From a virus: a DNA stretch of 39,195 bases. Shown here piece by piece: positions 1,792 through 29,556 of the stretch; the first letter of the stretch is position 1; every line of letters starts with the position of its first letter. Location of the stretch: IMG/VR virus record IMGVR_UViG_3300032893_000155, positions 1 to 39,195 of that record; one strand, 5' to 3'. The translations under genes were made by a program, and so were the position numbers. The notes beneath the pieces were generated by a model. The model was not told where the DNA came from and ran no database searches. It saw nothing but the letters and a program-made list of their open reading frames with translations.

Positions 1792-2167
1792 TGGCTTTCT
1801 CCTTTGCGTGTTGGTGCCAAGCAAATCCCCCAAAAATCCTAACGGCTCGATAGATAATCTGCCTGGTCAACCATGACACATCTTCCGTTTTCATCGCTTC
1901 CAAAAAGATTCCATCTGACTTCGCTCGATCAAAAGTCTGTCTGGTATAAAGTGCATCATGAACTATCGCCGCTCCGATATATAAACCAAAAGGCGGGAAG
2001 ATATTCCAAACGATTCGAGGAGTACTCGCTAGATCTGTCCTTAATCCTTTGGTAACGATAACTTCTTCTCCGTCGTTACAGATATAAGAAAAGTCTTGGC
2101 AAACAATCCAACTATCACTTTCACCTTGTATTACCTGAAGATCTATTTCACCGACGAAAAAACCCAT
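1781..2167 (-). CDS. DUF1353 family phage protein
   Basis: A 128-residue protein with the hallmark of DUF1353: TDLASTPR near residue 44, then a hydrophobic segment and VHDALY near residue 69, with a conserved histidine and aspartate. DUF1353 proteins are common in tailed phages near tail or lysis genes; their biochemical role is not established, although the H-D pattern has led to suggestions of an enzymatic function. The ATG overlaps the previous stop (TAATG), consistent with translational coupling. Confidence 0.8.
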   Translation of the reverse strand: MGFFVGEIDLQVIQGESDSWIVCQDFSYICNDGEEVIVTKGLRTDLASTPRIVWNIFPPFGLYIGAAIVHDALYTRQTFDRAKSDGIFLEAMKTEDVSWLTRQIIYRAVRIFGGFAWHQHAKEKANGG

Positions 2168-2601
2168 TAGAAGTTTATACGTGCCCCAAATGTGAATCCA
2201 AGCACGCCATGATGGACATCAGCATCATAGGAATATCGCGGGGTCGCCTCAATCGCCTGTAACGTTTGCCCAAGCGCCGGATTGATTTTGAAGAACGAGT
2301 TAATGAACGAGATCGCATGGATATGTATTCCTACCGTCCCGGCCAAATGACCGGAGGCGTCAGGTGAAAGGCTATTTGAAACACCCCCGTCAAGAGCCAC
2401 AATATAATCGCCAGCATAATGACCTCCCTGAATAATTCCGTCTATGAACTCAAGTTTGGTATTACCATGAGTTGTGAATTCTGATACTGATGTTACATGT
2501 TGAAGAAGTGAAAAAAGAATTTGCTGCGGATCTTGTGGCGAATCTGCATAAACCAACGGTGCCAATCCTGCCCATAACAAAAATACAATCAACTTTTTCA
2601 T
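2167..2601 (-). CDS. Exported, possibly outer-membrane-like protein
   Basis: A 144-residue protein with a clear Sec signal peptide, MKKLIVFLLWAGLAPLVYA, with cleavage expected before DSPQ. The mature part is about 125 residues and has alternating polar and hydrophobic segments. It ends in GFTFGARINF, a terminal phenylalanine with alternating hydrophobic residues resembling the beta-signal recognised by the BAM complex in Gram-negative bacteria. A small beta-barrel or membrane-associated protein acting in lysis or superinfection exclusion is possible, but this is inference. The start has a strong AAAAGGAGAATTAA ribosome binding site. It lies between the putative holin and the DUF1353 gene. Confidence 0.75.
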   Translation of the reverse strand: MKKLIVFLLWAGLAPLVYADSPQDPQQILFSLLQHVTSVSEFTTHGNTKLEFIDGIIQGGHYAGDYIVALDGGVSNSLSPDASGHLAGTVGIHIHAISFINSFFKINPALGQTLQAIEATPRYSYDADVHHGVLGFTFGARINF

Positions 2602-2895
2602 TTAATTCTCCTTTTTGTTTCTCAATTCTTTGATCTCAGTTTTAATCTCAGACAAAATAGAAAGTATTTGCAAATAATTTCCGTCGTGAATTGCAACCTT
2701 TCCTTCTAAAGCTCCAATCTGTTTTTGAAGCTCAAATCTTTTTTCGGAAACATCTTTTTCATGGTTGTCTTTCCAAGTCCACAGCTTTTCCAATTGGGTG
2801 AAATTTTGATTGTTTTTGTATTGAGAAACAGCAATATGCCCTATAACAATAACCGCAGTCCCCCCCCATCCTGCAAGTGTTTCAATGGGAATCAT
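2602..2895 (-). CDS. Membrane-anchored coiled-coil protein, holin or spanin candidate
   Basis: Starting at ATG 2895, which overlaps the endolysin stop (ATGA), the product has 97 residues. Residues about 4-22 (IETLAGWGGTAVIVIGHIAV) form one transmembrane segment. The remainder is charged and predicted helical (residues about 45-97, rich in K, E, L and I), like a coiled coil. One membrane segment plus a long charged helix immediately after an endolysin candidate suits a class III-type holin or an inner-membrane spanin. No defining motif was seen, so the function is inferred from context. Confidence 0.65.
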   Translation of the reverse strand: MIPIETLAGWGGTAVIVIGHIAVSQYKNNQNFTQLEKLWTWKDNHEKDVSEKRFELQKQIGALEGKVAIHDGNYLQILSILSEIKTEIKELRNKKEN

Positions 2896-3359
2896 TTTGG
2901 AATACTCGAAACCAACGCAAAATATTGTGGCTCTTCCTGAAATGCCCATCCTGCATGTTTACCAATGAATACATCCTTTCCAATATTCATAACAAGTGGA
3001 ACATTCTTGGCAAAGTGTCCCGAAAACTGCATTTCTCCAGGGATTACTACACATACATGCCCATGACCTTCAAGATTAAATTGTGCTGCTACTACCAATG
3101 CACCAACATTCGCATGTGCTTGAGCTACATTTCCATCTATGTTCATCCAATCACCTGAAGATTTCATGAAAGAAATAATCGCATTCGCCATCACAGGATG
3201 AGAAATATCCGGCGCATTGAATTTTGTATAGCCAATTGCATTACAAATGAAGTTGATAGCCAAATTACAGAATGTTGTACCATTGGCTAATGGATACCAC
3301 GGTTGTCCAATCGTGGCTTGATTAAAAACTTCATAAATAGCTGAAAGCAATTTAATCAT
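2892..3359 (-). CDS. Putative endolysin, Cys/His peptidase of NlpC/P60 or CHAP type
   Basis: A 155-residue protein with no signal peptide. TTFCNLAINF near residue 28 looks like the catalytic cysteine at the start of a helix, and EGHGHVCVVIPG near residue 97 looks like the catalytic-histidine strand of NlpC/P60 or CHAP peptidoglycan hydrolases. The order, spacing and compact size fit a single-domain endolysin. The next gene overlaps it by 4 nt and is a holin or spanin candidate, which supports a lysis cassette. Which of the two related families it belongs to cannot be settled by eye. Confidence 0.68.
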   Translation of the reverse strand: MIKLLSAIYEVFNQATIGQPWYPLANGTTFCNLAINFICNAIGYTKFNAPDISHPVMANAIISFMKSSGDWMNIDGNVAQAHANVGALVVAAQFNLEGHGHVCVVIPGEMQFSGHFAKNVPLVMNIGKDVFIGKHAGWAFQEEPQYFALVSSIPK

Positions 3360-3375
3360 GAATTTTTTTCGTTAT

Positions 3376-3795
3376 TTATCCACCAATCTGTCTTACACAT
3401 GCTTTTTGAATAATCATGTAATTTGTGTTTGCATTAATTGCAGTTTGAGTTCCATTCGTTTCATTCTGAATGAAAGTTTGAAAATCATGCAGGAACGCAT
3501 TAATCGCTAAAACATCTGAGGCCGTTAAAAGGTTGGGTGGATTGCTGCTGTTTGTATCGTGCCATCCTGCGATTGATGTTGTGTCGACCAAAGTGTTGTA
3601 AACACTTGTGATCGATGCAATATTATCGTTGCCTTGAAGATTTGCTGAACGAACCAATTCGGCAAAAGGTCTTATGCGTTGATCAACAAAAGTTTGTACC
3701 TGAATACAATTTGCCTCGCCTGCAGGCGGATTGTTGCAATCTGCAAATACTCCACCTGGAATTGCCCATAACAACATCAAAAATAATTTCTTCAT
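3376..3795 (-). CDS. Exported small protein of the tail/lysis region
   Basis: A 139-residue protein beginning with a canonical signal peptide, MKKLFLMLLWAIPGGVFA, with cleavage before DCNN. The mature region carries three cysteines (two close to the N-terminus, one near the C-terminus) and is otherwise polar, with helix-forming and asparagine/threonine-rich stretches. An AGGAGG-type ribosome binding site precedes ATG 3795. No family was recognised. Its signal peptide resembles those of several neighbours (2601, 6473, 6739), suggesting a set of exported proteins of common origin or function. Confidence 0.75.
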   Translation of the reverse strand: MKKLFLMLLWAIPGGVFADCNNPPAGEANCIQVQTFVDQRIRPFAELVRSANLQGNDNIASITSVYNTLVDTTSIAGWHDTNSSNPPNLLTASDVLAINAFLHDFQTFIQNETNGTQTAINANTNYMIIQKACVRQIGG

Positions 3796-3810
3796 ACTTC
3801 TGTTTTCCTC

Positions 3811-5277
3811 CTAATGTGCGATTACCAAGCTTCCGCCTGGAAATTGTTTATTTTTAACAGCACCGACATTAAGATAAGAGACCAGTGCTGAAATCGTATC
3901 CCCAAAAACCGTAAAATTACCGACGCCGGTTCCCATCCCGGCTTGATTTTTCATTCTGAAGTCGCCCGTGTTCATATTGAAGTAGGGGTTGCTCGCATAA
4001 TTGAATGAATTGATTTCGAGCATATTCGTGGAGTTGGTTGTTCCGCTGGTATTGTTAAAGAATCCGTTTTTTTCGATTACACCGATACGCTGATTTGCGG
4101 TAGTTCCGTGTATCCCGTATCCGCCATTGTTAACCAGATTTACGTTGGCTATATGGATTCCATGATTGCTTGTCGTATTAGAAAGGGCGATGCCATCGCT
4201 GGTGTTATTTGCAAAATCACTGTCAATTATTTCAACGTAATTGTTCGTTCCGGTAGTTGCATCTTCTAAACCGTATTTTCCATTGTGACTTCCAATCACA
4301 TTTACATAGATGGTTGTTCCGGTTGCTCTATAACCACTTACGTTTGAACCAGTTGAATCATGTGAATTGCACAACCACAAAAATCCACTTGACGGACCAA
4401 ATCCAGCAGTATTGGCTCCGTTTGATTTTCCGCAATTGTAAGCTTCATCTTGAAGAAAAATATGGGAATTTGAATTACTAAAACAATTCCCCCCAGCACC
4501 TGATACAATAACTCGATAAAAAACTTGATTAGCTCCGTTAGAACCGCCATTGGACAAACCTGGCTGTGTTATGTTATTTCTAAACCACAAATCCGCCCAA
4601 AGTGTATCTTGACCATTGCTTAAATTAACCATTTGATTCGCAGTATTTCCCCAATCAAAAATAGCTTTCCCACCATCTCCAGGAGTTGCAGAATAACCTT
4701 GAAAAATTGTAACTGCAGTAAGAGAACCATTTGAATATTGAAGCGTCGTTGTAAGACTGAAGCTCGATATATTGTTTTTAAAATTAACCCGCGTAATGTC
4801 GCTTGACACGTCCACCATGACTGGTGTTATCAGACCAAATGGAAATAATTGTGTATTCAACGGGCCTTTCCATTGACCGCCAACAGTGCAACTTCGACCT
4901 GTAGCGCTTGTTGAAGGAGCTGTGCCGCCAAAATTTATGTTGCTCAAAACAAGCGTGGCTCCGCCGTTGTTGACGGCTGTGATTCTTGAAATATAGCTGG
5001 TCGATGAAGCGGCATCTATATAGACCGCGGCGAAATCTCCGACGGAAGAACCAGAAAAAGGAGTTCCAGAGGCAGCCGTAAATGAACTATTTGTTGCATC
5101 CCAATTCCCGTTGGTTGATGTCACAACAGATTTGTTGTCTCCGGCATTAATGTTCGATCCATTGACTCCATCCACATAGAAATCTGTTGTATTTATGGCG
5201 TAACACCATTTTCCTGATGTCAAGAAAATGGTCGTTCCCATAATTAATCCTATTACGATAGTGATAATTCTCTTCAT
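3811..5277 (-). CDS. Beta-helix tailspike/fibre-like protein with signal peptide
   Basis: A 488-residue protein. The N-terminus (about 27 residues, MKRIITIVIGLIMGTTIFLT then a short stretch ending WCYA) looks like a Sec signal peptide. The mature part opens with DFYVDGVNGSN, typical of right-handed beta-helix proteins of the pectate-lyase-like superfamily. Residues about 300-430 carry PbH1-like coils rich in N, G, S and I (for example SDGIALSNTTSNHGIHIANV and GGYGIHG). Such proteins bind or cleave host surface polysaccharide. Four mature cysteines occur mid-protein. The ATG overlaps the previous stop (ATGA). A signal peptide on a tailspike-like protein is unusual. Confidence 0.75.
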   Translation of the reverse strand: MKRIITIVIGLIMGTTIFLTSGKWCYAINTTDFYVDGVNGSNINAGDNKSVVTSTNGNWDATNSSFTAASGTPFSGSSVGDFAAVYIDAASSTSYISRITAVNNGGATLVLSNINFGGTAPSTSATGRSCTVGGQWKGPLNTQLFPFGLITPVMVDVSSDITRVNFKNNISSFSLTTTLQYSNGSLTAVTIFQGYSATPGDGGKAIFDWGNTANQMVNLSNGQDTLWADLWFRNNITQPGLSNGGSNGANQVFYRVIVSGAGGNCFSNSNSHIFLQDEAYNCGKSNGANTAGFGPSSGFLWLCNSHDSTGSNVSGYRATGTTIYVNVIGSHNGKYGLEDATTGTNNYVEIIDSDFANNTSDGIALSNTTSNHGIHIANVNLVNNGGYGIHGTTANQRIGVIEKNGFFNNTSGTTNSTNMLEINSFNYASNPYFNMNTGDFRMKNQAGMGTGVGNFTVFGDTISALVSYLNVGAVKNKQFPGGSLVIAH

Positions 5278-6473
5278 TGAGCGCTCACTGAATTCTTTTC
5301 TTCGTAAATTTCAGCGGAAACAAAATAGGCATCGCCCGTAGCGTCGCCATTTCGATAGAGCCTTAACCACAAATGTTGATAGGCAGCGCAAGATCCGGCC
5401 GGCGTCAACGCCGCCGATTCTTGTGATATTGTGAAACCATTGCTGGTCGTTCCTGTTGAAACAGTAACTGAGGTTCCCCATGATCCTGGCGAGGCTCCGG
5501 AAACAACACATTGAGCGTCCATAACCCATGTCTCTGTGATAGTCATGGTCGCAGTTGATAAAAGTTTAAAGGTTAGAGTTGATCCTGTGACATAGTATCC
5601 GGGGAGTTCGAAATCTATCTGAGCATATTGTGTCGTTCCAGCCTGAAAAATAAGCGCTGCATAATTGACACTCGAAGATGTTATTTCAAATTGTGATTGA
5701 GGAACACATCCATTGCTAATCTGGGGCAGCCATGCACCTGACTTCACATCCAATAATTCCAATGGATAGGATGGATTACCTGAAAATGTGATCGTTGAAA
5801 AAGAAGCTCCGTAAGGAAATCCTGCCGTGGCTGTTGCATTATAAACGCTTGCCCCACTGCCGCCACTTGGAGTGGCCCATGTATTATCAGATTTCAGAAA
5901 ATTTGATCCATTGGCTCCGGTCGCATTAAGATTGGATGTACTTATAGAAATACTAACGTTGGTAGCACTGCTCACCAATCCCTGTGCATTTATGGTGACA
6001 CTTGATACTTGGCTGGCACTTCCATAAGTTCCAGCCGTTACACCGTTAACTGGAAATGAAGAGACGAGCACACTTGAATTCAAAGCTCCTGATGCGACAT
6101 TTGCAGCTGGTATAGTTATATTTGAATAAGTTCCGGATTGAAGATTTGAATTTGTTAAAGAAATAACAGTATTGGAAGAAGAAGTTAATCTGCCATCATT
6201 ATTAACAATATAGGTCGTAACTTGAGTTGCACTTCCATAATTACCGCCAACCACCCCAGTTGCATTAAGAGATGAAACAGCAACTTGAGTAAACAAATCT
6301 TTAAGAGCGATTGATCTGCTACTAGGTGATCCTGATGGATTGTCTACTTTGTAAATCAAATCAGTTGATTGTGCTGTGGTATCTTGAGTTAATGCTGTTA
6401 ACTTAGAATCTGCATACCCTATTGTTGGCAATAAAATTAAGAAACCAATTTTAATCAAAAAAAGTTTTTTCAA
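5274..6473 (-). CDS. Fibre-like repeat protein with signal peptide
   Basis: A 399-residue protein starting at TTG 6473, which overlaps the previous stop (TTGA). The first 21 residues form a Sec signal peptide ending in IGYA before DSKL. Residues about 70-190 carry two related repeats of the type found in phage and bacterial fibre proteins: GGNYGSATQVTTYIVNNDGR and AGTYGSASQVSSVTINAQG. A GSNFLKSDNTWATPSGGSG segment then leads to a beta-rich C-terminal half of about 190 residues. These repeats usually form trimeric fibre shafts, and the C-terminal half could be a receptor-binding head. The shaft-like repeats support the fibre call; the head fold is not recognised. Confidence 0.7.
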   Translation of the reverse strand: MKKLFLIKIGFLILLPTIGYADSKLTALTQDTTAQSTDLIYKVDNPSGSPSSRSIALKDLFTQVAVSSLNATGVVGGNYGSATQVTTYIVNNDGRLTSSSNTVISLTNSNLQSGTYSNITIPAANVASGALNSSVLVSSFPVNGVTAGTYGSASQVSSVTINAQGLVSSATNVSISISTSNLNATGANGSNFLKSDNTWATPSGGSGASVYNATATAGFPYGASFSTITFSGNPSYPLELLDVKSGAWLPQISNGCVPQSQFEITSSSVNYAALIFQAGTTQYAQIDFELPGYYVTGSTLTFKLLSTATMTITETWVMDAQCVVSGASPGSWGTSVTVSTGTTSNGFTISQESAALTPAGSCAAYQHLWLRLYRNGDATGDAYFVSAEIYEEKNSVSAQ

Positions 6474-6739
6474 TTTAGCACCAATTTAGTTCCATCTTCG
6501 AGTAAAAAAAAGGAAGCATCTTCCAAAAGCAAAAAAGAACTAACCACGGCTCCTCCGCATGTCGCCCAAACCAATGTTGCAGGTGTGTTTCCATCCGTTT
6601 CTAGGCATTGTCCATTGGTTCCTGGATTGCTGGGAAAGGTATAAGTCACCCCTCCAATAGTTAAAGTTCCTTGGATAGTAAAACTGGCTTGACTCAAAGA
6701 AGGCAAAAAGAATAAACAAATCAAAAATAATTTTTTCAT
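6470..6739 (-). CDS. Small exported fibre-associated protein
   Basis: An 89-residue protein with signal peptide MKKLFLICLFFLPSLSQA, cleaved before SFTI. The mature part contains FPSNPGTNGQCLETDGNTPA followed by LVWATCGG. This resembles the GTNGQ.L..DG....W sequence common at fibre C-termini, with two cysteines that could form a disulphide. The C-terminal 20 residues repeat a short motif (FLLLEDASFFLLEDGTKLVL). It lies between the 206-residue protein and the 399-residue fibre protein, overlapping each by 4 nt. Confidence 0.7.
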   Translation of the reverse strand: MKKLFLICLFFLPSLSQASFTIQGTLTIGGVTYTFPSNPGTNGQCLETDGNTPATLVWATCGGAVVSSFLLLEDASFFLLEDGTKLVLN

Positions 6740-7356
6740 GGATTAAAACTCGCTTTTTCAACAAAAGTCCCTGATTCGCGTCGTTGCACTGAAAGATTGT
6801 TTCCTGATACGGTGATTCGCCAATTCCCATCAACGGTCGGATCTCCAATGTTCAAAGGATCAGCGTTAGATGTTCCACCTGTAGTCGCTCGCCATCTTTG
6901 TTTTCCTTCAAAGATCGTCAAGACGTAGCCTTCTGGATTTCCTTCTGGAGCTGGGATTCCAATAACGCCACTGCCTCCATGAACGAAAGCGATCTTTCGG
7001 GTTGCTTCTTGGAGATCTTTTTTAAGGCTTTCAATTTGTATCTTAAGCTCATCAATTGCCGCAAGGTCGGCGTATTCTTTCTTGTCTTTTTTTTCTTCGA
7101 TCCGGATCTCTTTGACGATTTGCTTTTCAATGACTTTCTCAATCGGTTTTGGCTTCGGCAAAAGTTTTAACTCTTTCCAAAGAATTTCTACCACATCTTG
7201 AGGGTTCAATTCTCGTTTCGGAGCATTTTTGAGAACTTTTTTTACATCCAAATTTTCAAATTCACGCGATGGATCAAATCCTGTCAATCGCTCGAAAGGT
7301 TTTTTCGGGTTGAACTCGCCCAAAGATTCAAATTTTCGTTTCGGATCAAAACTCAT
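6736..7356 (-). CDS. Tail/fibre-region protein with N-terminal FDP repeats and coiled coil
   Basis: A 206-residue protein without a signal peptide. The first 36 residues contain three copies of a roughly 12-residue motif, F[DN]P-x(3)-FE-x-L (FDPKRKFESLGE, FNPKKPFERLTG, FDPSREFENLD). A lysine/glutamate-rich helical region (residues about 65-120) looks like a coiled coil. The C-terminus (GIPAPEGNPEGYVLTIFEGK, then a beta-rich end) resembles fibre or attachment domains. It could be an adaptor anchoring the fibre proteins downstream. Family not recognised. Confidence 0.68.
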   Translation of the reverse strand: MSFDPKRKFESLGEFNPKKPFERLTGFDPSREFENLDVKKVLKNAPKRELNPQDVVEILWKELKLLPKPKPIEKVIEKQIVKEIRIEEKKDKKEYADLAAIDELKIQIESLKKDLQEATRKIAFVHGGSGVIGIPAPEGNPEGYVLTIFEGKQRWRATTGGTSNADPLNIGDPTVDGNWRITVSGNNLSVQRRESGTFVEKASFNP

Positions 7357-8489
7357 TGCTCAATATATTCCTGTCCATCCCATTTATAAATCTTGCCATC
7401 TTGACGGACGAATTTTCCATGAGGAGCAGGCAATTTTTTAATCGTTTCGCCCAATTGTTGTAATGCAACACCCACAGCTGGATTATTAACCAAAGGAGAA
7501 ATCGCTTTTGAAACTAACCCAGCACCTGTAGCTGCCGCCCCTTGTATTGCTGGCGACAAAACACCACCAGCTAATGCTGCTCCTGTGGCAGCACCTCCTG
7601 GGCCACCGATAGAACCTATCCCTGTCAAAGCAGGACCGATTGCCATTTTAAAAGCCGATGTTCCCCCATATTTGTTTTGTGGGAGTATGTTCCTCAAAGA
7701 ACTTGCCATAAGTCCCCGTTTAAATAATGGGTCTGCTTGTGCAATGTTTTCACTGGATTTCGCCATTTCATCGAAAGTATCACGAAGTCCCATCAAAGTA
7801 TCTTTAACGTAACGTTTTGATTTAAGAAGAGAATCCACTGCTTTTCTGGCTTGGAGTGCTTCAGAAGGTTCTAATTTTCCTCCTTGTGAAATATATTCTT
7901 GAGCCTTACTAACAATATCTTCTGGTTTCCACATGTCATTAAACAGATTTGCGCCTTGTGGCAATTCTTGTTGTGCAGCTTCATATAAAGGTTTGGCCGC
8001 TTCTTTCCCAGGTGAGAAAATCAAACTCGGATCTTTATAAGCCGCCTCCAATGATCCTGGCATCGAACCAGATGCAGATTCCAATTGACTCCCCAAACCC
8101 CTTGCTGCTGATTTGAATAAGGGTGCTGCCGCTTGCGCCCCTTTTAACGCAGCAGAAGTCAAAATAGCTCCTCGGGAAATGAATCCTGGCGCTACTTGAG
8201 CCAAAGTATCTGCTGCTATTTTAGGAGTCCCTTTGAGAATATCCATTGGTAAATTACCCGTTGATTCTGGATTTGGGACATAAGCCGAAAGCATCCCCAA
8301 TCCTTTCCTGGACATTTGTTCTGGAATAGCTAAAGCATTCCAAGCATCCTTAACTGCGTTTTTAGTCTTATCCCACATCCCTTGCGGTTGTTCTTGTCCT
8401 TGTTTTTGAGCTAGATAAGCATCAGGATCAAAACCACCTGAAGATTGTTTTTCCTGAAGATATTGATCGGGATCAAAAGCGGTATCCAT
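7353..8489 (-). CDS. Putative ejection (internal virion) protein, FDPDxYL type
   Basis: A 378-residue protein with two N-terminal FDPD-x-YL-x(2)-K motifs (residues about 6-12 and 20-27), a short signature seen in internal virion proteins of podoviruses. An alanine/glycine-rich hydrophobic region (residues about 280-335, including GIGSIGGPGGAATGAALAG) could insert into membranes, as expected for proteins ejected with the DNA. The C-terminus is short and polar (GKIYKWDGQEYIEQ). It overlaps both neighbours by 1-4 nt and follows two other ejection-type proteins. The role is inferred from composition and position. Confidence 0.65.
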   Translation of the reverse strand: MDTAFDPDQYLQEKQSSGGFDPDAYLAQKQGQEQPQGMWDKTKNAVKDAWNALAIPEQMSRKGLGMLSAYVPNPESTGNLPMDILKGTPKIAADTLAQVAPGFISRGAILTSAALKGAQAAAPLFKSAARGLGSQLESASGSMPGSLEAAYKDPSLIFSPGKEAAKPLYEAAQQELPQGANLFNDMWKPEDIVSKAQEYISQGGKLEPSEALQARKAVDSLLKSKRYVKDTLMGLRDTFDEMAKSSENIAQADPLFKRGLMASSLRNILPQNKYGGTSAFKMAIGPALTGIGSIGGPGGAATGAALAGGVLSPAIQGAAATGAGLVSKAISPLVNNPAVGVALQQLGETIKKLPAPHGKFVRQDGKIYKWDGQEYIEQ

Positions 8490-9838
8490 TATTGGACTCC
8501 GTTAATCTGTAATATCTTTTTAGCTCTAGGATCATTTGGATTTTGCTTTGCCCATTGGACGGCTTGAGAATCTTGAGGATGTGATTTTACTTGTAACTGA
8601 TCCATAACATCAGATCCATGCTGAGAAAGGAGCTGCCTTTGCCCTCCGTGACTTCCAGATACACTCGATTGCTGACTTTGGATTGCATTGATACGTGAAT
8701 CAAGAAGTTGAGCCGCCTTTTGTAAGGCAGCATGAGCTTGGGATGGGGTTAAATTATCAGTTAAAATATTTGAAAAATGACTTATTTCTGTATCTGTTGC
8801 TCCACCTGTTTTAAACGCATTTGCTAACTCTCCCGCAACCGCATTGATATTAAGATCAAGCGCGATAATATTCGGATCATTGCTTTGTTTCTTAAGTACA
8901 TTTATAGGTGTATTAAGCCATCTTTGATCAGTATTCCCAACAGCTTGGTAAGCTTTCTCTGCATCTCCAATATGACCCAAGGCCGTATTAAAAGACACGA
9001 CATTTTGACCCATTTTTCCATAGGCAAGATTTTTTGCCATTCCCGCATTTACATCTCCACCATAAGAATGAAAGTCTTTCCCAGTTTTATCAGCATATTC
9101 ACTTGCTAAAGACACAATACGTCCTCGATCTCGATAGCCAATATCAGAAGGTCTTATTTTTCCATCTACTAAATTACGGGCAAGCCTTTGATCATCGGCA
9201 GGGGCTGTATCATAAGTAGAAGTGTTCATCGTCGAAAGACCTGTGGGTTTAGCCATCATACCAATATTTTCTCTTGGGGCTTGGCCTTCGGGATAAGCAG
9301 CATTAAAACTTTGTTGATCTAAAGTTGGGACAATTAATTTAGCTTGAGGATAATTTAAAGTATCTCCTTGTTTTGTCTGAAATTGTTTCTGATATTGTTG
9401 TCTTTCATCTTTTCCCATAGCAGTCATAAAATCAGGCTCTGCGCCCTGCTTAGGCATTCCTTGTGACTGCCATTGTTTAAATCGATCAATCAAAAGAGAA
9501 GGACTAGAAACATTGCCTTCACCACTTGGCATAAAAGAACTTTTTCCAAGGATAGGTTGAACTTGAGATCCAACGCTCTGTTCATTTGGATCAATTGGTT
9601 GTCCATAATCATAATTGAATTTCTGTTGGTCTTGTTGCTGTTCCATCTGTAGCAACATTTGATTTATTCTATCCTGTTTTTGTTTTTCTTGCATTTGCTT
9701 TTGATAATCCAATCCTGTAGCAATTCCTTGTCCGATTTCACTAATACCTTGTGCATATTGTTCTTTTGTTTGTTGATTTCTTTGCTGACCATATCGATAA
9801 GCATTTTCATAAGCTTGAGGATCAAAATTTAATGCCAT
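8489..9838 (-). CDS. Putative ejection/internal virion protein, Q-rich
   Basis: A 449-residue protein. The N-terminus (ALNFDPQAYENAYRYGQQRN) shares the FDP-x(2)-Y motif with the next two genes. Residues about 20-75 form a glutamine-rich helical region. The middle (residues about 245-400) is mainly helical, including ALDLNINAVAGELANAFKTG and NLTPSQAHAALQKAAQLLDS. The composition and the position between nozzle/tailspike and fibre genes match internal virion proteins of podoviruses, which cross the envelope during DNA injection. No enzymatic motif was recognised. Confidence 0.65.
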   Translation of the reverse strand: MALNFDPQAYENAYRYGQQRNQQTKEQYAQGISEIGQGIATGLDYQKQMQEKQKQDRINQMLLQMEQQQDQQKFNYDYGQPIDPNEQSVGSQVQPILGKSSFMPSGEGNVSSPSLLIDRFKQWQSQGMPKQGAEPDFMTAMGKDERQQYQKQFQTKQGDTLNYPQAKLIVPTLDQQSFNAAYPEGQAPRENIGMMAKPTGLSTMNTSTYDTAPADDQRLARNLVDGKIRPSDIGYRDRGRIVSLASEYADKTGKDFHSYGGDVNAGMAKNLAYGKMGQNVVSFNTALGHIGDAEKAYQAVGNTDQRWLNTPINVLKKQSNDPNIIALDLNINAVAGELANAFKTGGATDTEISHFSNILTDNLTPSQAHAALQKAAQLLDSRINAIQSQQSSVSGSHGGQRQLLSQHGSDVMDQLQVKSHPQDSQAVQWAKQNPNDPRAKKILQINGVQ

Positions 9839-9846
9839 AATTTCTC

Positions 9847-11079
9847 CTAACTTTTAAGATAACCATACGCGTTACCTAAACCAGAACCAATCCCATAACC
9901 AACCTGTGCACCTCCGGGGCCACCAAAACTGCCACCAATTGCACCTAAAGTACCACCAATAGCTCCATAAAGAGGATTATAATTGCTACCTTTATTTGAA
10001 TTCATATACTGAAGATAATTATTCATTTGAGTATTGTAATCAGCCCCAGCGAAACCTTGATTTAAAAGTTGCTGACCGTATTGTCTTTGGTTCTGGGTAT
10101 TTTGTTGATTTTGGTTATACATTTGACTCAATGTATTTTGATAATTACCAATTGCCAAATCCTTATTCCCACCATATTGCTGGGCTGACAAATTCGCTAA
10201 ATAAGCCGATCTATTGGAAGAGATTTTTCCCATTAAATCAGTCAAAGCATAATCTAAAGATGGAGAAAGACTTTTCCCATTGGCATCAAACCCAGCGGGC
10301 ATTCCATTAGCACCATAAGCCGAAATGATATCGCCTTTTTCTTGATTAAATTCTTGAGTATCATAATTTTGTAATTCGGTATTTAAACCGCTTCTAAATT
10401 TAGCATCCTGAGCATTGGTATATTCAGGCTGTTGTTTAAGAAATGATCCTAAACCATAAGAATCGATTTGACCTGTTTGAATAGCTTGCGAAAAATGCTG
10501 AAGCTCATCAGTTGTAGGAGGTCGACCTAGAATACTTTGGAACTGCTGATTGACATTATTCGAAATGTCACCAGGCTTTTGATTGTTAAAAGAGCTTGTC
10601 GGATCAAGTTGAGGGTTTGATTTGTATTGTTGTTGAAGATTACTTAATGCAGCCCGACCATTAAGCAATCCATTTGGGCCTTGAAAAGCAGGTGCTATCT
10701 GATTCCATTCTGAAGTTGTTGGTGCCCTTCCAAATGTTGAATTGAAAGAATCATACATCTGCTTATTCAGCTGATCTAATGGAGTATTAAGTTGATCTTG
10801 TGTTACAGTTCCATAACGTTTAATCAACTGATCAGGTGTAAAACTATTTAGGATATTATTATAAGCACCTTCAAATGAGCCTTGTTGATTGGAGTCATAA
10901 GAAGGAATATATCCATGTTTCCCGAGTGTTATTTCATTAATTGAGTTTGGATCAGCACCTTGCTGTATTTGAGTATGATGTCCTTTGCCGCCAAAACCCA
11001 AATTCCCGGTTAATCCGGCTATAGGCCCTGCTCCCAAAGGATTTGTAATTGTTGATCCGATTCCTAATGGTGTTGCCAT
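9847..11079 (-). CDS. Putative ejection/structural protein with duplicated GRxPTT domain
   Basis: A 410-residue protein rich in G, N, Q and Y. Two related segments, FNSTFGRAPTTSEWNQIAP (near residue 112) and FQSILGRPPTTDELQHF (near residue 180), look like an internal duplication related to the DUF4214-type pattern (a GR.P.. turn after a short helix). The C-terminal 50 residues are glycine-rich (GAIGGTLGAIGGSFGGPGG), suggesting a membrane-active tail. The N-terminus is also glycine-rich. It is the first of three consecutive proteins with ejection-protein character. Confidence 0.65.
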   Translation of the reverse strand: MATPLGIGSTITNPLGAGPIAGLTGNLGFGGKGHHTQIQQGADPNSINEITLGKHGYIPSYDSNQQGSFEGAYNNILNSFTPDQLIKRYGTVTQDQLNTPLDQLNKQMYDSFNSTFGRAPTTSEWNQIAPAFQGPNGLLNGRAALSNLQQQYKSNPQLDPTSSFNNQKPGDISNNVNQQFQSILGRPPTTDELQHFSQAIQTGQIDSYGLGSFLKQQPEYTNAQDAKFRSGLNTELQNYDTQEFNQEKGDIISAYGANGMPAGFDANGKSLSPSLDYALTDLMGKISSNRSAYLANLSAQQYGGNKDLAIGNYQNTLSQMYNQNQQNTQNQRQYGQQLLNQGFAGADYNTQMNNYLQYMNSNKGSNYNPLYGAIGGTLGAIGGSFGGPGGAQVGYGIGSGLGNAYGYLKS

Positions 11080-11107
11080 AAATACTCCTATATTTCCTTG
11101 TTAAATA

Positions 11108-12550
11108 TCATGGCCCGGCATTTCTCCAAGCCCCGCCGCTGTAAAAATAAAATCTGTTGTCTGATGTATCAACAATGATTGGAACAACTCCATTTAAAGT
11201 CTTGGGTGTTCCTGTTGGGACTCCTGGGCAACTTGGAACATAAAGGAATCCGTGATCATCAGTTGTGGACAATGCGCTTTGATTGGTCGAAATGCTGGTA
11301 TTGTTTGTTGGATCTGTAAATATTGTAAAAATGGCAGAAGATCCATTGCTGCTGATAAAAACAGAATTATCGTTTGCGTCCAGCCCAATTTTCCCAAATT
11401 TAGTTCCATCGCGCCGCAATTCTAAAAGTGGAGCAAGAACTCCATGTTCATTTCTTTGAAGAGCAAATGGCGTTTTACTGGCTGAACTTGATTCAATGAC
11501 GAGTGTTCCTGAATTTTCCCACAAAGCTGCATTGGTGGTTCCCAATGTGAGTCCTCTACTAAAAGATGTCTGATAAGGTAATTTATAAGCTCCTGGAGAA
11601 GTCAATTTTCCTTGCTGAAAAGCCGCCAAGTCATTAAAGTCAACCATGTTCAAATGACCAACCAAATTTTCTATTTCGCCGCCGATACCCGTAAGATAAT
11701 AATTTTGAGTGGCCGTAATGGGATACCCAGATGTCGTACTTGTAAATATATAGCTATTTGGCTGAAGCCATGATCCATTGATGAAAAGCCTGCTTTGATT
11801 GTTAATCGCATTATCGGAATTGTCGATAATGATCTGATCAATTAACATGATCGATCCAATTAAAGTAACTGCCGTTGAGAATCCCGTCACATAAGATTCG
11901 CTTATTTTTCCCATGTTAAAAGTAACGGTGGCATGAGAATCTCCCAAACGAATTCCCTCGCCAATCGTAGAACCTTGACCGAGAATTCGGCCCATATTAA
12001 TGTCTAACACCAATCCATAAGGAATAAAAATTCCATTTTTGAAACCTTCGATTTCATAATTCTGAAGCGAAAAATCGGTAATAGGAGTAGTTATGCTACT
12101 TGCGATGGCATATCCCGTAGAATTATTGGGTGAATAAATCTTTATTTTTTCAAGATTGTTGACTTTACCAGTAAAGAAGAGTGCAGTTCCCGTTGTGGGT
12201 GTATATTGCAATATGGATGATTTCGCGCCTTCTCCTAATAACGACACATGGGTTGGTACTGTGGCTCCGGTGAAATTATAGGTTCCCGCCGGGAAAAACA
12301 CTATTTTCATATTGGTTTGAGCATTTGAAATAGCCGCTTTAATGGCATTGGTATCATCTGTAATGCCATCTCCCACTGCGCCATAATCTTTTACATTGAT
12401 GATTAGATTCGTGATTCTGGAATTAATTTGATCATTGTTTTGATAAACATTCTCAAATTCCATTTGCTCGATGGTGTCTTTGTGTTGATAAGTCGGGCCA
12501 CTGGCGAAACAAGTAACTGGTAGAATAAAAAAGAAAAGTATCTTCTTCAA
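11108..12550 (-). CDS. Pectate-lyase-3-like beta-helix tailspike with signal peptide
   Basis: A 480-residue protein. TTG 12550 overlaps the nozzle stop (TTGA) and starts a signal peptide, MKKILFFFILPVTCFA, before SGPT. Residues about 50-110 match the start of Pectate_lyase_3/GH55-like beta-helices: VKDYGAVGDGITDDTNAIKA, followed by FFPAGTYNF. Phage tailspikes often carry this domain for recognition or cleavage of capsular or O-antigen polysaccharide. The last 60 residues (SCPGVPTGTPK, NRFYFYSGGAWRNAG) resemble a fibre tip. The fold is confident; catalytic activity cannot be read from the sequence. The signal peptide is unexpected in a virion protein. Confidence 0.8.
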   Translation of the reverse strand: MKKILFFFILPVTCFASGPTYQHKDTIEQMEFENVYQNNDQINSRITNLIINVKDYGAVGDGITDDTNAIKAAISNAQTNMKIVFFPAGTYNFTGATVPTHVSLLGEGAKSSILQYTPTTGTALFFTGKVNNLEKIKIYSPNNSTGYAIASSITTPITDFSLQNYEIEGFKNGIFIPYGLVLDINMGRILGQGSTIGEGIRLGDSHATVTFNMGKISESYVTGFSTAVTLIGSIMLIDQIIIDNSDNAINNQSRLFINGSWLQPNSYIFTSTTSGYPITATQNYYLTGIGGEIENLVGHLNMVDFNDLAAFQQGKLTSPGAYKLPYQTSFSRGLTLGTTNAALWENSGTLVIESSSASKTPFALQRNEHGVLAPLLELRRDGTKFGKIGLDANDNSVFISSNGSSAIFTIFTDPTNNTSISTNQSALSTTDDHGFLYVPSCPGVPTGTPKTLNGVVPIIVDTSDNRFYFYSGGAWRNAGP

Positions 12551-14910
12551 TTTGGAATCCAGGTTTTCGGCCTTATACCAACTTGCACACCATAAACCTC
12601 GAATGGTTGATCCGCTGCATCATTTCCAAATTTCACATTAAAATCACCGGCGATGGTTCCAGCTTGAATATTTTTGTTTTTGTTCATGAATATACTATTG
12701 GCTTGATAGAGAGGAACCACATAAGCCACATCTGAACTTCCATTAATGCTATACGTCACCGTCATTGAAGATGTGTCCACTTCTTTTGCCACAATCGAAA
12801 TATTGGCTAACTCTTGGACTGAAAATGGACTGTTCCCAAAAAAATCTTTTGATTTCCAATAAGCATTGATGGCATTCCCATTATCGTTATCAACATCACC
12901 AAATTTATAAATATAACCATTTGAAGCGCTTCCCAAATAAAGTTTGTTCTGTCGAACCAAAAATCCGTTCATAGCCAAATCATAAAGAACCCACGTCTGA
13001 TTGAGCATGTCATAAACAAGAGTTTTGTTATTTGTTGTTGAACCGGTTCCGGCTGTTACCTCAAACCAAATTTTGTCATCAAAATAAGTGGCATAAGCTT
13101 TATCGGAAGCCTGTCCTTCAAACCAATTCTGGGTAAAATTATTTAGAATAGGAGTTTCAGTTGAATAATTAGTTGTAAAAATATCTCTAAATTGGAAATA
13201 AGTTCCTGTAGAAATAATTGGAATATTTCCTGAAATAATAGAAGTCCATGAAGGAGTTGAGGAAGTAACATCAATTGGATTTGTAGATGAACGGATAGAA
13301 AAAGAATTTGATCCATCGTTATCTTGATAGTTGGCTGAAAAAAAATCCCACGTCTTTAATTGAGGAGCATTTTTAACTGCAGAAAGATAAGTCCCATTTG
13401 TAATATATGTGCTTCCAATCAAATAATATTGAAGTTTTGCTGTAGTAGTAATTGTCGATCCATCTACCAATTGTTTATATGGAAAATTGGTATTAGTCGT
13501 GTCCCACCAATTCAACTTATTTGATCCATCTGTATAAGCCCCTTGTAAATAAATCCAATAAGTTGTTCCACCTTGGATAGCAAGAGAAGATGTTAATGTT
13601 ATTTGTAAGTTTCCATTCCCAACAGCGACATAAGTATTTGTCGAAATATTTTGGCTGAGAATAGTAGTTCCTGGTAATCCAGAAGCATCAGTTCGAATCG
13701 AGAAAGATAAAACTGATGCAGGATTTCCAGAAGTTATAACTGGAAGTATAACAGCATTCAATAAGAAATAACTGGTAGTCGAAAATTGGCGAGCTGTTCC
13801 ATTATTAATTTTTTGCCCAACTGAATTACCTGGAGCGTACGATTGAAAAGTAGTAGATGGTAAAAGTGATAAACGCAAAGATCCAGGATTTGACACAGCA
13901 TCTAAATTTGTTAATGAACCAGATTGAAAATCTGCCTGTGAACTTTGTAACCAAGAATTTTGTGTTCTATTTTGTTCGGTTGCTATCGTTCCTGAAATCT
14001 CACGAGATAACCGTTGATATGTAGAACCATCAAAAGTATAAATATGACCATCTTGACCTCGGAAATAAAGAATCCCTTCCCGAAAAACGAAACTATTATC
14101 ATTAGTTCCTACGTCATAAGAAACAGTCTTAATAACCCAATCTGTTTGGGCAGATTGGTTTCCGATTAAGACAAAACCAAAACTTGAATCTTTAAACCAC
14201 ATCAAACGACTAAAAGCATAGACAATGCCGGTAATCTTAGATCCGGGAGCGCTAACCGTTAATTGAACCGGAGAAGTACCCAAAGAACCTGTTCCCCATG
14301 TTGTGAAATCGGAATCTTGCGAGAAATCGATGGCTGAAGGTCTGTCTGAGAATCCAGCCATCGCCAAACGAGTCACGCAAGTGGCCACCATCGTGCCTGT
14401 AGAGGCCACATTTGAGATTTGAGAGTAGGTAACGCCGTTTGTCTTGATTAAGGTCGTTCTTTGGCTATTCGCGCAATAAGCGAACCCTAGCGTGTCTGTG
14501 CACTGATATGTAGCCCCATTAGGGCCAGTGGAAAAAATGACGGTTGGAGAAGCAGCTCCAACCGAACCACTTAAATAAGTGTCATTTGCGAAAAGATCGA
14601 CTGTATTCCCATTTGAATCGAAGAAAGTGTAAATACCATGAACAGGGGATGTAGTGATAGGTAAAGTAAAAGCAAGACCATAACCTTTCCTTTTGAAGAC
14701 GGATTTTCCGCCGGGCGTGATATTGACGTTAAGACAATCTTGGCTATTTTGTGCCGGTATTGCAAAGGAACTATCTCGATTATTTACGCCAGAAAAAGGA
14801 CCTATCGGCTGAGGTTGAAAATCCTCGCCAGCAAAGACCAATCCACAAACTAAAACAATAAGACTAGTAAAGGAAAGGGTAACTTTTCTGAGGCCAGTAA
14901 TTGTATCCAA
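12547..14910 (-). CDS. Tail nozzle-like (tail tubular B-type) structural protein
   Basis: A large beta-rich protein of about 787 residues from the chosen start. Segments such as DRPSAIDFSQDSDFTTWGTG and FRGQDGHIYTFDGSTYQRLS match beta-propeller-like nozzle proteins of podoviruses, which close the tail below the adaptor. The frame is open to 15000. I prefer TTG 14910 (AAGG about 8 nt upstream) because it yields a conventional signal peptide: a short n-region, the hydrophobic VTLSFTSLIVLVCGLVFA, then GED. ATG 14964 is an alternative, with GGAG upstream but a 45-residue leader. The gene overlaps the adaptor gene. The structural role rests on similarity plus gene order. Confidence 0.7.
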   Translation of the reverse strand: MDTITGLRKVTLSFTSLIVLVCGLVFAGEDFQPQPIGPFSGVNNRDSSFAIPAQNSQDCLNVNITPGGKSVFKRKGYGLAFTLPITTSPVHGIYTFFDSNGNTVDLFANDTYLSGSVGAASPTVIFSTGPNGATYQCTDTLGFAYCANSQRTTLIKTNGVTYSQISNVASTGTMVATCVTRLAMAGFSDRPSAIDFSQDSDFTTWGTGSLGTSPVQLTVSAPGSKITGIVYAFSRLMWFKDSSFGFVLIGNQSAQTDWVIKTVSYDVGTNDNSFVFREGILYFRGQDGHIYTFDGSTYQRLSREISGTIATEQNRTQNSWLQSSQADFQSGSLTNLDAVSNPGSLRLSLLPSTTFQSYAPGNSVGQKINNGTARQFSTTSYFLLNAVILPVITSGNPASVLSFSIRTDASGLPGTTILSQNISTNTYVAVGNGNLQITLTSSLAIQGGTTYWIYLQGAYTDGSNKLNWWDTTNTNFPYKQLVDGSTITTTAKLQYYLIGSTYITNGTYLSAVKNAPQLKTWDFFSANYQDNDGSNSFSIRSSTNPIDVTSSTPSWTSIISGNIPIISTGTYFQFRDIFTTNYSTETPILNNFTQNWFEGQASDKAYATYFDDKIWFEVTAGTGSTTNNKTLVYDMLNQTWVLYDLAMNGFLVRQNKLYLGSASNGYIYKFGDVDNDNGNAINAYWKSKDFFGNSPFSVQELANISIVAKEVDTSSMTVTYSINGSSDVAYVVPLYQANSIFMNKNKNIQAGTIAGDFNVKFGNDAADQPFEVYGVQVGIRPKTWIPN

Positions 14911-15595
14911 GTCGTGCGCCTTGTGGTTGCCACATAATCTTTTCAGGAACAGCTTCCGAAACATCAAACTCCGCCATGATTCGACCCAAATTCTTTTCAA
15001 ATTCGCCAGGTTTCATCATATCGCCTGAACGGTGAAATTTGGATTTCATTAAAGCTTCTGGTGTGCCATCATCAGAGAAACATTGGGCTACAACCCAATG
15101 ACAGATCGTAATATGATAAGGCGTCATTCGATTGTTTGAGTCGAAAGGAATATCTGTTGAATTGACTAGATCAGCAGGCTTGCGAGATTCGTAAATTGTT
15201 AAAGAAGCAACACTCGCATCAGGAACAGGCGCCAAAATGAGCGCCTGATTTGTAGCGTCATATATCCAATATTTAGGCTCGCCTGGTTGCCATTGGTTCC
15301 AGTCAGGATAAGAGAAATCGAGTCGATCTCTGCCTATTCCTTGTAATGGTCTCAAACTTCCGTCGGTATAAACTTTGTAAACACGAATGATATCCATCGT
15401 ATCCGCGTTGATGCCATAAGTGGAAGTCCCTGATACGAGAGCAATTGATTCAGATAGCTTAATGGGCGATGCATATCCTTGAATTACACTCATTGCGATA
15501 TTTATGCGAGTAGCAAGTACATCGAGTGGCCACCTGTCATTATTCTTGTCGCTCAATAATCGAGCACACTCTTGTTGTAAAGACGATAAATTCAT
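14864..15595 (-). CDS. Head-tail adaptor (P22 gp4-like)
   Basis: A 243-residue protein. The N-terminus (LSSLQQECARLLSDKNNDRW) and the helical core followed by GEPKYWIYDATNQALILAPV are typical of the P22 gp4/T7 gp11-like adaptors that attach below the portal ring. It is immediately upstream of the nozzle-like protein, the usual order in podoviruses. Unusually it is separated from the capsid gene by about 5.9 kb of glycosyltransferase and HNH genes. ATG 15595 is divergent from an HNH gene starting at 15610. Confidence 0.78.
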   Translation of the reverse strand: MNLSSLQQECARLLSDKNNDRWPLDVLATRINIAMSVIQGYASPIKLSESIALVSGTSTYGINADTMDIIRVYKVYTDGSLRPLQGIGRDRLDFSYPDWNQWQPGEPKYWIYDATNQALILAPVPDASVASLTIYESRKPADLVNSTDIPFDSNNRMTPYHITICHWVVAQCFSDDGTPEALMKSKFHRSGDMMKPGEFEKNLGRIMAEFDVSEAVPEKIMWQPQGARLGYNYWPQKSYPFLY

Positions 15596-15609: not shown

Positions 15610-16086
15610 GTGCGAAAAATTGTCCCTATAGAAAAAAGATTTTGGGGTAAAGTTGATAAAACAAAATCGTGTTGGATTTGGAATGGGGCAACTAATTATG
15701 CTGGATATGGCGTTATTGGCCTCGGTGGAAGAGATCAAGGGAATATTCTCGCCCATCGTTTTTCTTATGAAATTCATCATGGGAAAATAAAATATGGAAA
15801 TTTTATTTGTCATAAATGTGATAACCCACCATGTGTAAATCCATCCCATTTGTTTCAAGGAACAAATCAAGACAATGTTTCGGATATGATTAGAAAAAAT
15901 AGAAATTTTTCTGTAATCGGAGAAAACAATCATTTCAATAAACTTTCCAAAGAAGCCATTATTGAAATAAGATCTCAATATAAAAGAAATATTATTGGAT
16001 ATAAAAAATTGGCTAAAAAATATGGCGTTGTTTTTAGTTGTATTCAGGCCATTGTTAATAGAAAAAATTGGAAACACTTATCATAG
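15610..16086 (+). CDS. HNH homing endonuclease with C-terminal helix-turn-helix
   Basis: A 158-residue plus-strand protein starting at GTG, without a good ribosome binding site. It has the zinc-dependent HNH layout: AHRFSYEIHHG near residue 53, then [17 protein letters not shown] (residues about 71-87) supplying cysteines and histidine, and GTNQDNV. The C-terminal 50 residues (LSKEAIIEIRSQY through NRKNWKHL) form a likely DNA-binding helix-turn-helix. It is a clear paralogue of the gene at 17934-18392 along its whole length. It lies against the direction of all neighbours between adaptor and methyltransferase-glycosyltransferase genes, as expected of a mobile homing gene; its 3' end overlaps the next gene by 6 nt. 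Confidence 0.88.
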   Translation: MRKIVPIEKRFWGKVDKTKSCWIWNGATNYAGYGVIGLGGRDQGNILAHRFSYEIHHGKIKYGNFICHKCDNPPCVNPSHLFQGTNQDNVSDMIRKNRNFSVIGENNHFNKLSKEAIIEIRSQYKRNIIGYKKLAKKYGVVFSCIQAIVNRKNWKHLS

Positions 16087-17916
16087 CCGCCTTTTCCCCT
16101 GAAACTCTCTTTTGATATTTTCAAGAATTGACTTATAGCGTTTTGCTATATCGTCCATATTGAAATCCTTTTTCACTCGATGATAAGCAGCTTCGCCTAT
16201 CTTGGCACGCTTCCCTTTCTCGACGATAAGACCACGGATGGCCTCGTACCATTGCTGTTTACTATTACTAATGATGATTCCATCTTTTCCGTCTTTGATT
16301 GAATTCACAAACGGATAAACTTTGCTGGCGATAGTCGGAATTTTCAGCCCACTATATTCTAACCAACGAAGATTACTTTTTACACGATTGAACTCATTAT
16401 CCAAAAGTGGCGCAACGCCAATATCCGGTTCCCAATCTGAAATCATCTGCGGAAATTTGGATAAAGGAGACCATCCGATAAATTTTTTCAATCTTTCAGA
16501 ATCACAATTTTTGAAACATTCAAACCGTTGATTCGGATACCAAAATTCAAGATTTGGGAATTCTTTTAAAAGTTCAATAATCACATCTTCGACAATATCT
16601 ATATCACCGGAATGATTAGCGCAGCCGGTATAAATAATTCTTACCAAATCAGGATTTTTTTCGTGATCGATTGTTTTCTTCGTTAAGTTGTCCCAAATAT
16701 CAAAATCAATCGAATTGGGAACGACATAACATTGCTTATTAGGTAAAATTTGATAAATCTTTTTGACCAAATATTGAGTCGAACAAATCACATAATCCGA
16801 AAGTTTGAGTTGTTCATAAGCGATTGCTTCTGGAGTTGAGTTTGGCTTATAGGGGCCGGAAGCCATGTTATAAGGCGGAATATCAAAAAACCAGTCATCC
16901 ATTTCTAAGACCAAAGGTTTTTTAATGTGATAGGGATAAAGATTCTTTGGATCTCGGAAAGCAGTCAGATATCTTAAAATGCTTTCAGAACTCGTTACTT
17001 GGAAAACACTTAAATCAGCAGTTTTCATCAAAGAGAAAAGCTCATTGATTATGTGCTGATTGGTGAACCTTTTTTCTGCTTGATTCCAATTACATTTCCT
17101 TGTCCAAGCAGAAGGCCCATCACGATCTCGCTCGTCATAGGGATTGTAGTTAATCTCAGCTCCAAATTTTTGCATTTTGTCTGCGTAACCAGACATGCGA
17201 TAGTAAATCGTCCCTGGCGTTTGCGTGAACCCAAACCAAACACGTAGAATTCTTTTGTCTTGAAAGGCTTCGTTCCAATCATTTGTATTTTTTCCACCAG
17301 CTTTAAAAAGAATTTCACAAGGTTGATCCATTAAGTAGCTACCTAGAAGCTGATTAGAAAATTCTTTACCTTTAAGCGTTCTGAGATAATGGAGTTTAAA
17401 TGACTTTTCTATTTTTTGGCTAAGACTTTCCTCTTCAAAATAAATTCGATGAAGCCGACGATCGTGCCAACCATAAATATCAAGAATTTTGTGAGGAACC
17501 GAACCAAGTAAAATTCCATCTTTTTTAAGAACACGGCGAATCTCCTCTAAAGCCAAATAACAATCCGGCAGATGAGATAGAACATCCATGCACGTGACAT
17601 AATCAAACGTACCATCCTCAAAAGGCAGTTTTTCAGCGTCCCCAACTTGAACATTTAATCCTTTGTCTTGCGCTTTTTTAACCAATTCTTCTGAAAGATC
17701 AATACCAAAAACATGACATCCTCGTTTGTCTCTGAGAAGTTGAAGGAAAGAACCGTCATTACAACCTATTTCAAGTACTTTACTATCCTTTTTTATTTCA
17801 TAAGCAATAGGCAGAACTCTGCTTTCAAATTGAGGATTATTTTCTAAATCACCAGATCCAGTTGCGGGATAATTACGAAAATCTTCTTTTGTTATTTCAT
17901 TTACCAATAATTTCAT
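16081..17916 (-). CDS. Methyltransferase-glycosyltransferase fusion protein
   Basis: A 611-residue two-domain protein. Residues about 40-150 form a class I SAM-dependent methyltransferase: [15 protein letters not shown] (motif I), [10 protein letters not shown], then [20 protein letters not shown]. Residues about 340-610 resemble a GT-B fold family-4 glycosyltransferase: [21 protein letters not shown], then [20 protein letters not shown] for the donor-binding region and a TIASKVYPF segment. Such fusions occur in polysaccharide clusters and modify surface glycans. Here the gene is part of a cassette between capsid and adaptor genes, so virion or host-surface glycosylation is possible. Substrate unknown. 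Confidence 0.82.
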
Positions 17917-17933
17917 ATAGCATCTACTACACT

Positions 17934-18392
17934 ATGACAATTAAACCTGAAATAAGATTCTGGAAGTATGTCGAAATAACAACTAATTGCTGGCTTTGGA
18001 AAGGTTCGATGGCTAGTGGCTATGGGACGTTGCTTGGTGAAGGTGGCCGACAAGGCAAAATGATCGGGGCACATCGTTTTTCTTGGAAACTTCATAATGG
18101 AGAAATTCCAAAAGGAATGTGCGTATGCCATAAATGTGATATAAAAATTTGCGTAAATCCTTCTCACCTTTTTTTGGGAACACAAGCTGAAAACATAAAA
18201 GATATGACGATGAAAAAACGTCATACACTTGGTGTTAAAAATCCAATGGCTAAACTTAATAATGAAAAAGTCGCAAAAATAAGAGAATTGTTTAAAATTG
18301 GATATTCTTTGGATGTTCTTTCTTTGATTTACAATATCAGCAAAGCCACTATTTGTAGGGTGATAAATAGAAAGATCTGGAAACATATTTAA
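17934..18392 (+). CDS. HNH homing endonuclease (paralogue of 15610-16086)
   Basis: A 152-residue plus-strand protein from ATG 17934; no strong ribosome binding site precedes it. The core [16 protein letters not shown] and [20 protein letters not shown] gives the cysteine and histidine pattern of zinc-bound HNH enzymes. The C-terminus ([14 protein letters not shown] through [18 protein letters not shown]) is a helix-turn-helix. It matches the plus-strand HNH gene at 15610-16086 along its length but at moderate identity, so duplication or a second invasion was not recent. It separates two glycosyltransferase genes and faces the opposite direction. Confidence 0.88.
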
Positions 18393-29528: not shown

Positions 29529-29556
29529 AGTTTAGCAGATGTTAGCTATTTGTCAA
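29529..29556 (-). promoter_or_regulatory. Candidate late promoter
   Basis: TTGACA (29556-29551), a 16-nt spacer and TAAACT (29534-29529) on the minus strand. The -35 overlaps the last codons of the aminotransferase gene. Transcripts would start near 29522 and meet the terminator after about 50 nt, making this leader a possible attenuation or antitermination site. Confidence 0.6.

Follow-up and report, generated by a model that had tools for sequence, protein, structure and literature searches.

The nozzle, fibres and spikes of a lineage of uncultured podoviruses begin with predicted Sec signal peptides, and these tail parts are in all likelihood exported from the cytoplasm. This was found in a window of 39,195 bases, which is the whole of a single virus record (IMG/VR IMGVR_UViG_3300032893_000155), and in the relatives of that virus. 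The signals and their cleavage sites are conserved across the lineage and restricted to the distal, external parts of the tail, and they are accompanied in the nozzle by an invariant pair of cysteines. Tail assembly in tailed phages is understood as cytoplasmic. That the exported proteins are subsequently incorporated into virions is a reading of these sequences that we consider somewhat better than evenly balanced.

Seven N-termini in the window have the sequence features of Sec export and cleavage by signal peptidase I, namely a basic n-region, an uncharged hydrophobic core of 7-15 residues and small residues at positions -3 and -1 (predicted cleavage sites in Table 1). A preliminary description of the window had pointed to these seven Sec-type N-termini at the same starts, and all are present and pass a rule-based test that also passes 15/16 textbook signal peptides. 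The background of the rule (score >=9) was 2.6% of 1,133 shadow open reading frames (ORFs) in the same genomes, and unlike the window, T7, P22 and HTVC010P had zero signals in their tail genes. Seven signals among approximately 15-19 late genes greatly exceed chance (P ~8e-7 for 7/15 at a 4% rate). The ejection-type genes between 6736 and 11079 had no signal by the rule, which agrees with what had been said of them before.

Relatives were gathered from IMG/VR, using as queries the nozzle, nozzle alignments and the capsid protein, resulting in 23 distinct members including the window. These are podovirus-like genomes with a similar gene order, and in the aligned set their nozzles are 34-50% identical to the window nozzle. 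The preliminary description had proposed looking for the same signals in related phages, and they are there: all 23 nozzles carry a signal peptide, as does the fibre or spike gene following the nozzle in 21/21 members examined. In one relative (G002), for example, the nozzle reads MGSFKSLSLKLVALVALLSVPALA^ADTVDQTIGPFG and the fibre MKKAFAFLFLAFVAIAFA^EGPLYHFKDP. The signal sequences vary between members and the cleavage-site grammar is kept. Among the inferred sites of 44 nozzles and fibres, 32 have A at residue -1, 6 have S, 5 have G and 1 has C, and 43 have a small or aliphatic residue at -3. Most fibre cleavage positions are fixed independently by a conserved GP starting at mature residue 2. 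Genes further downstream bear signals too (e.g., ..AFA^DRLGSLRSSADVLLTTQ in G012), and two of those that were tested match tail-fibre PHROGs. Overall, signals occur in 61/202 genes from the nozzle downstream versus 11/285 genes upstream, on the head and glycosyltransferase side (odds ratio 10.8; p = 3.8e-16, counting related genes as independent). No signals were found in the capsid, scaffold, portal and ejection families across the set. The upstream cases include two special groups, the adaptor-type genes of G003 (see below) and a small gene of ~85-175 residues that follows the capsid gene in several relatives. The latter could encode an exported head decoration or head-fibre protein.

The signal habit extends past this nozzle family, to two genomes (G016 and L032) in which a related nozzle was not found. 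G016 contains a run of four consecutive fibre-like genes with signals, and another signal-bearing gene comes after a 2,437-residue ejection-type protein; in L032 a signal precedes a fibre-like start of the GYTWVNGELVTAAKLN type. Close relatives of three different nozzles were absent from 50,697 phage records, and in the same records the fibre N-terminus had no relatives beyond a general beta-helix motif. A search for hosts through GTDB contigs yielded nothing but elements of Bacillus and Neobacillus, whose nozzle is distant and has no signal.

The identity of the window nozzle is convincing because of its modelled fold together with its position directly after the adaptor (phrog_399), whose end at 14864 overlaps the nozzle start. 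Its AlphaFold2 model (mean predicted local distance difference test score, pLDDT, of 62.5) matches the Pa223 tail (E 8.5e-15), the phiM1 nozzle, P22 gp10 and T7 gp12, while a sequence search against PDB and Pfam gave no match. Both the fold and the signal of the nozzle-like protein that had been described from 14910 are thus borne out, with a start at either TTG 14910 or ATT 14901. Nozzle starts overlap the adaptor stop in the window (14864-14910) and in relatives, and are often TTG or GTG, perhaps ATC, ATT or CTG, which hints at translational coupling. The signals could in principle be chance products or mis-called starts, that is, hydrophobic-looking overlapping frames at gene junctions, which the non-AUG nozzle starts and the 2.6% background would allow. 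Such an origin is extremely unlikely, given that the signals are conserved in 23 genomes, recur independently on fibres, on spikes and on the adaptors of G003, and in the nozzle are situated beyond the adaptor stop. In lineage members 31-79 nucleotides separate the adaptor stop from the nozzle mature start, which places the greater part of the hydrophobic core past the overlap. Since the signal is mostly beyond the stop codon of the upstream gene, it is not a by-product of gene overlap.

Homologues without signals indicate where the mature proteins begin. After its signal, the window protein at 5274-6473 reads DSKLTALTQDT..DLIYKVDNPSGSPSSRSI. Its homologue in Pelagibacter phage HTVC008M begins with MADKKITALTDLG..LLHVIDDPSGTPINKKI, which is the mature start, and the homologue in Methylophilales phage Melnitz-3 begins there as well. 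Two adaptor homologues in G003 match phrog_399 from profile positions 4 and 10, directly after their signals, and signal-free outgroup nozzles align from the same mature region. The predicted signals are additions ahead of otherwise ordinary podovirus tail-protein starts. These observations bear on whether the hydrophobic N-terminus might remain uncleaved, either as an inner-membrane anchor for docked assembly or as a membrane-penetrating segment of the virion. Such a segment is kept in every member, and uncleaved signals are used by phages in their signal-arrest-release (SAR) endolysins (PMC3765740). We nevertheless consider this improbable, as conserved mature N-termini start at the site, both at the fibre GP anchor and in the signal-free homologues, and textbook c-regions with A-x-A-type sites are found in 44/44 nozzles and fibres. 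A SAR-type signal, which lacks both the c-region and the cleavage site, does not match these N-termini.

In an alignment from 12 genomes, only two cysteines are invariant among the signal-bearing nozzles, and they are nine positions apart ([YW]xC-x8-C). All lineage members have this pair (23/23); by contrast, the six outgroup nozzles without a signal all lack it (0/6), a contrast of one clade with its outgroups for which a Fisher p-value is not phylogenetically independent. In the AlphaFold2 model, C110 lies in strand 108-113 and C119 directly opposite in strand 116-121, forming a beta-hairpin. The modelled arrangement is consistent with a cross-strand disulfide formed in an oxidising compartment. 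Downstream proteins with a signal contain 0.81 Cys per 100 residues versus 0.42 in the others.

We also considered that each gene may yield two products, a signal-bearing form that is exported to serve as a decoy or to block receptors (superinfection exclusion, capsule stripping) and an internal-start form that remains in the cytoplasm and goes into virions. Depolymerase-type spikes would be useful extracellularly, and the nozzles of the window, L093, L095 and L110 have an in-frame TTG or ATG 2-11 codons ahead of the cleavage site. However, there is no conserved internal start near the mature N-terminus, and none at all within approximately ten codons in the nozzles of G003, G012, L101 and L104 or in the fibres of the window and G011. 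As a decoy role would also leave the export of the nozzle and its cysteine pair unexplained, we regard two products as unlikely.

The remaining signal-bearing proteins of the window differ in how clearly they belong to the tail. The protein at 11108-12550, adjoining the nozzle, matches PHROG tailspikes and PDB beta-helix enzymes, and its N-terminal anchor is seen in the alignment. Of two previously proposed beta-helix tailspikes, it is the only one shown to be of that type; the spike-like candidate at 3811-5277 had no family match in profile searches, and its structure model (mean pLDDT of 30) was useless. The small fibre-type protein at 6470-6739 has a weak match to phrog_15416. The seven proteins had been placed together in a tail/lysis region, but those at 2167-2601 and 3376-3795 may belong to the envelope and not to the tail. 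A similarly placed G005 protein was considered as a homologue of 2167-2601 and dismissed, the similarity not being significant.

As these two proteins have no link to tails, they would be compatible with a further explanation, namely that exported host-type or cell-surface proteins are merely situated among the tail genes. Lambda Lom is a signal-bearing protein of this kind, encoded between tail genes (PMC12309495), but it is a host outer-membrane beta-barrel produced in lysogens and not a tail part. For the signals as a whole this explanation is very unlikely, given the nozzle, tailspike and fibre assignments and a synteny that is conserved in all relatives. The preliminary description had left a choice between a lineage that exports its tail proteins and recruitment of host-type proteins. 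Conserved signals on phage families, together with the cysteine pair, lend good support to the former as a prediction. Recruitment is not supported, as the mature parts are themselves phage families, with homologues elsewhere that are signal-free and start at the mature N-terminus.

We propose that functional Sec signal peptides precede ordinary podovirus tail proteins, and that the nozzle, fibres and spikes would be made late, threaded via SecYEG and cut by signal peptidase I. These parts would fold in the periplasm, where a disulfide would close the nozzle hairpin, and it is their mature forms that would be found in virions. Capsid, portal, scaffold, terminase, adaptor and internal ejection proteins lack a signal and would stay in the cytoplasm, so that heads would be filled with DNA and sealed by the adaptor in that compartment. 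The inner membrane would keep heads and tail parts separate until it is opened by the phage lysis proteins, upon which the exported parts would dock onto the adaptors of filled heads; we infer that exported parts are assembled outside the inner membrane. The topological split, with signals on the distal external nozzle and fibres and none on proteins that touch DNA or reside in the head, is the pattern expected if heads are cytoplasmic, the tail tip is periplasmic and both are joined upon membrane breakage. The signal border falls between adaptor and nozzle. In G003, a 44-kb relative (L044) with tandem signal-bearing adaptor-type genes at 8497-9956, it falls one step inward; the division into exported and cytoplasmic parts is hence not fixed. 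With P22 and lambda, adding tailspikes or tails to filled heads in vitro is a classical experiment, and the joining step is therefore chemically possible. Joining of head and tail at or after lysis is the most speculative part of the proposal. Taken together, assembly in two compartments, with filled heads in the cytoplasm, a secreted tail that is oxidised and matures in the periplasm, and completion when the inner membrane breaks, is a tentative model to which we give slightly less than an even chance, including that it is widespread in uncultured podoviruses, as the signal-bearing fibre-type genes of G016 and L032 would imply.

Several points weigh against this model or the calls beneath it. 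To our knowledge, periplasmic tails joining cytoplasmic heads are known for no tailed phage. The signal peptides were called with a home-made rule and not with SignalP, and the nozzle cleavage positions were picked by eye. Signal-bearing proteins other than the nozzle show no bias towards even numbers of cysteines (20/37), which limits the disulfide argument to the nozzle pair. The nozzle start codons are the weakest point of the annotation. G005, L106 and L112 lack a canonical start suitably placed for the nozzle signal, although an ATC, ATT or CTG near the adaptor stop would yield good signals, and in L093, L103, L105 and L110 the only canonical start is within the hydrophobic core. Clear ATG starts, as in G001, G002, G007, G008, G009, L094 and L104, among others, are unaffected.

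The window probably represents a closed genome that was opened within a repeat-protein gene and is thus probably complete, since the same 21-bp tandem array is found at both ends (1-438 and 38912-39195) and reads across the join as a single open frame of GISG[ND]VS-type repeats. In order of transcription, the minus strand encodes the terminase, portal, scaffold-like protein, capsid protein, a glycosyltransferase module, adaptor, nozzle, spike and ejection-type proteins. The ejection-type genes (11079-6736) are followed by five signal-bearing proteins down to 2167, with lysis-type genes interspersed. The regions 16081-20855 and 29546-31573 encode a methyltransferase-glycosyltransferase, GT2 glycosyltransferases, a DegT aminotransferase and an FdtA isomerase. 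This module lies inside the structural region, is conserved and recurs across the lineage; glycosylation of the virion or of the host surface is a possible role. HNH-like homing-endonuclease ORFs were recognised by eye at 15610-16086 and 17862-18392 (plus strand) and at 28699-29166 and 34515-35003 (minus strand), the first two on the strand opposite the late genes, between structural and glycosyltransferase genes.

Table 1. Late genes, predicted signal peptides and related features (^, predicted cleavage site).
Feature	Position	Strand	Sequence or remark
Terminase	27066-28514	-	
Portal	24315-26462	-	
Scaffold-like protein	22592-23605	-	
Major capsid protein	21503-22555	-	
Adaptor (phrog_399)	14864..15595	-	no signal; border between cytoplasmic and predicted exported parts
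Nozzle signal peptide	14830..14910	-	MDTITGLRKVTLSFTSLIVLVCGLVFA^GEDF (site ..GLVFA^GEDF); TTG start; conserved in 23/23 members
Mature nozzle (T7 gp12 / P22 gp10 / Pa223 type fold)	12547..14829	-	fold match, relatives' alignment
Codons of invariant nozzle Cys pair	14473..14502	-	C110 and C119 of mature protein
Signal peptide, spike/fibre adjoining nozzle	12503..12550	-	MKKILFFFILPVTCFA^SGPTYQHKD; TTG start; signal peptide and GP anchor in 21 relatives
Mature tailspike	11108..12502	-	N-terminal GPxYxHKD anchor, then pectate-lyase-type beta-helix
Four ejection-type internal proteins	6736-7356, 7353-8489, 8489-9838, 9847-11079	-	no signals
Signal peptide, small fibre-type protein 6470-6739	6686..6739	-	MKKLFLICLFFLPSLSQA^SFTI (site ..SLSQA^SFTI)
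Signal peptide, fibre-type protein 5274-6473	6411..6473	-	MKKLFLIKIGFLILLPTIGYA^DSKL (site ..TIGYA^DSKLTALT); TTG start
Signal peptide, spike-like protein 3811-5277	5197..5277	-	MKRIITIVIGLIMGTTIFLTSGKWCYA^INTT (site ..KWCYA^INTTDFYVDG)
Signal peptide, protein 3376-3795	3742..3795	-	MKKLFLMLLWAIPGGVFA^DCNN (site ..GGVFA^DCNN); predicted exported
Signal peptide, protein 2167-2601	2545..2601	-	MKKLIVFLLWAGLAPLVYA^DSPQ (site ..PLVYA^DSPQ); predicted exported, adjoins lysis-type genes
Small signal-bearing gene of relatives	L093, L108, L110, L112 (4.3-4.5 kb upstream of nozzle); L036/L038 (after capsid gene); L127 16217-16744 (G016)		

The tails of this lineage resemble those of T7 (gp11 adaptor, gp12 nozzle, gp17 fibre) and P22 (gp4, gp10, gp9) in nozzle fold, in spikes and fibres with an N-terminal anchor, and in the gene order of adaptor, nozzle, ejection proteins and fibres. 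The tail itself is of the T7/P22-type family, and the predicted compartment is the difference. Among open-access full texts, we found no description of a tail protein with a signal peptide, only of exported lysis and membrane proteins, which is not proof of absence. Phage lysis proteins that the host Sec system exports via an N-terminal signal include SAR/Sec endolysins (phiKMV/JG068, UFJF_PfDIW6) and Rz1-type spanins (PMC3765740, PMC8951688). In contrast to the predicted tail parts described here, these act on the envelope and are not virion parts, and the tail proteins of their phages have no described cleaved signal. The P22 ejection protein gp7 is likewise trimmed at its N-terminus, losing 20 residues to a host protease (record note), but it is cut by OpdA, is not an external tail part and has no signal under our rule. 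A testable question is whether these virions contain N-termini cut by signal peptidase. If so, a Sec-exported nozzle, fibres and spikes would alter where and when virions are completed, disulfide-stabilised tails would become possible, and lysis would be tied to the final step of assembly.

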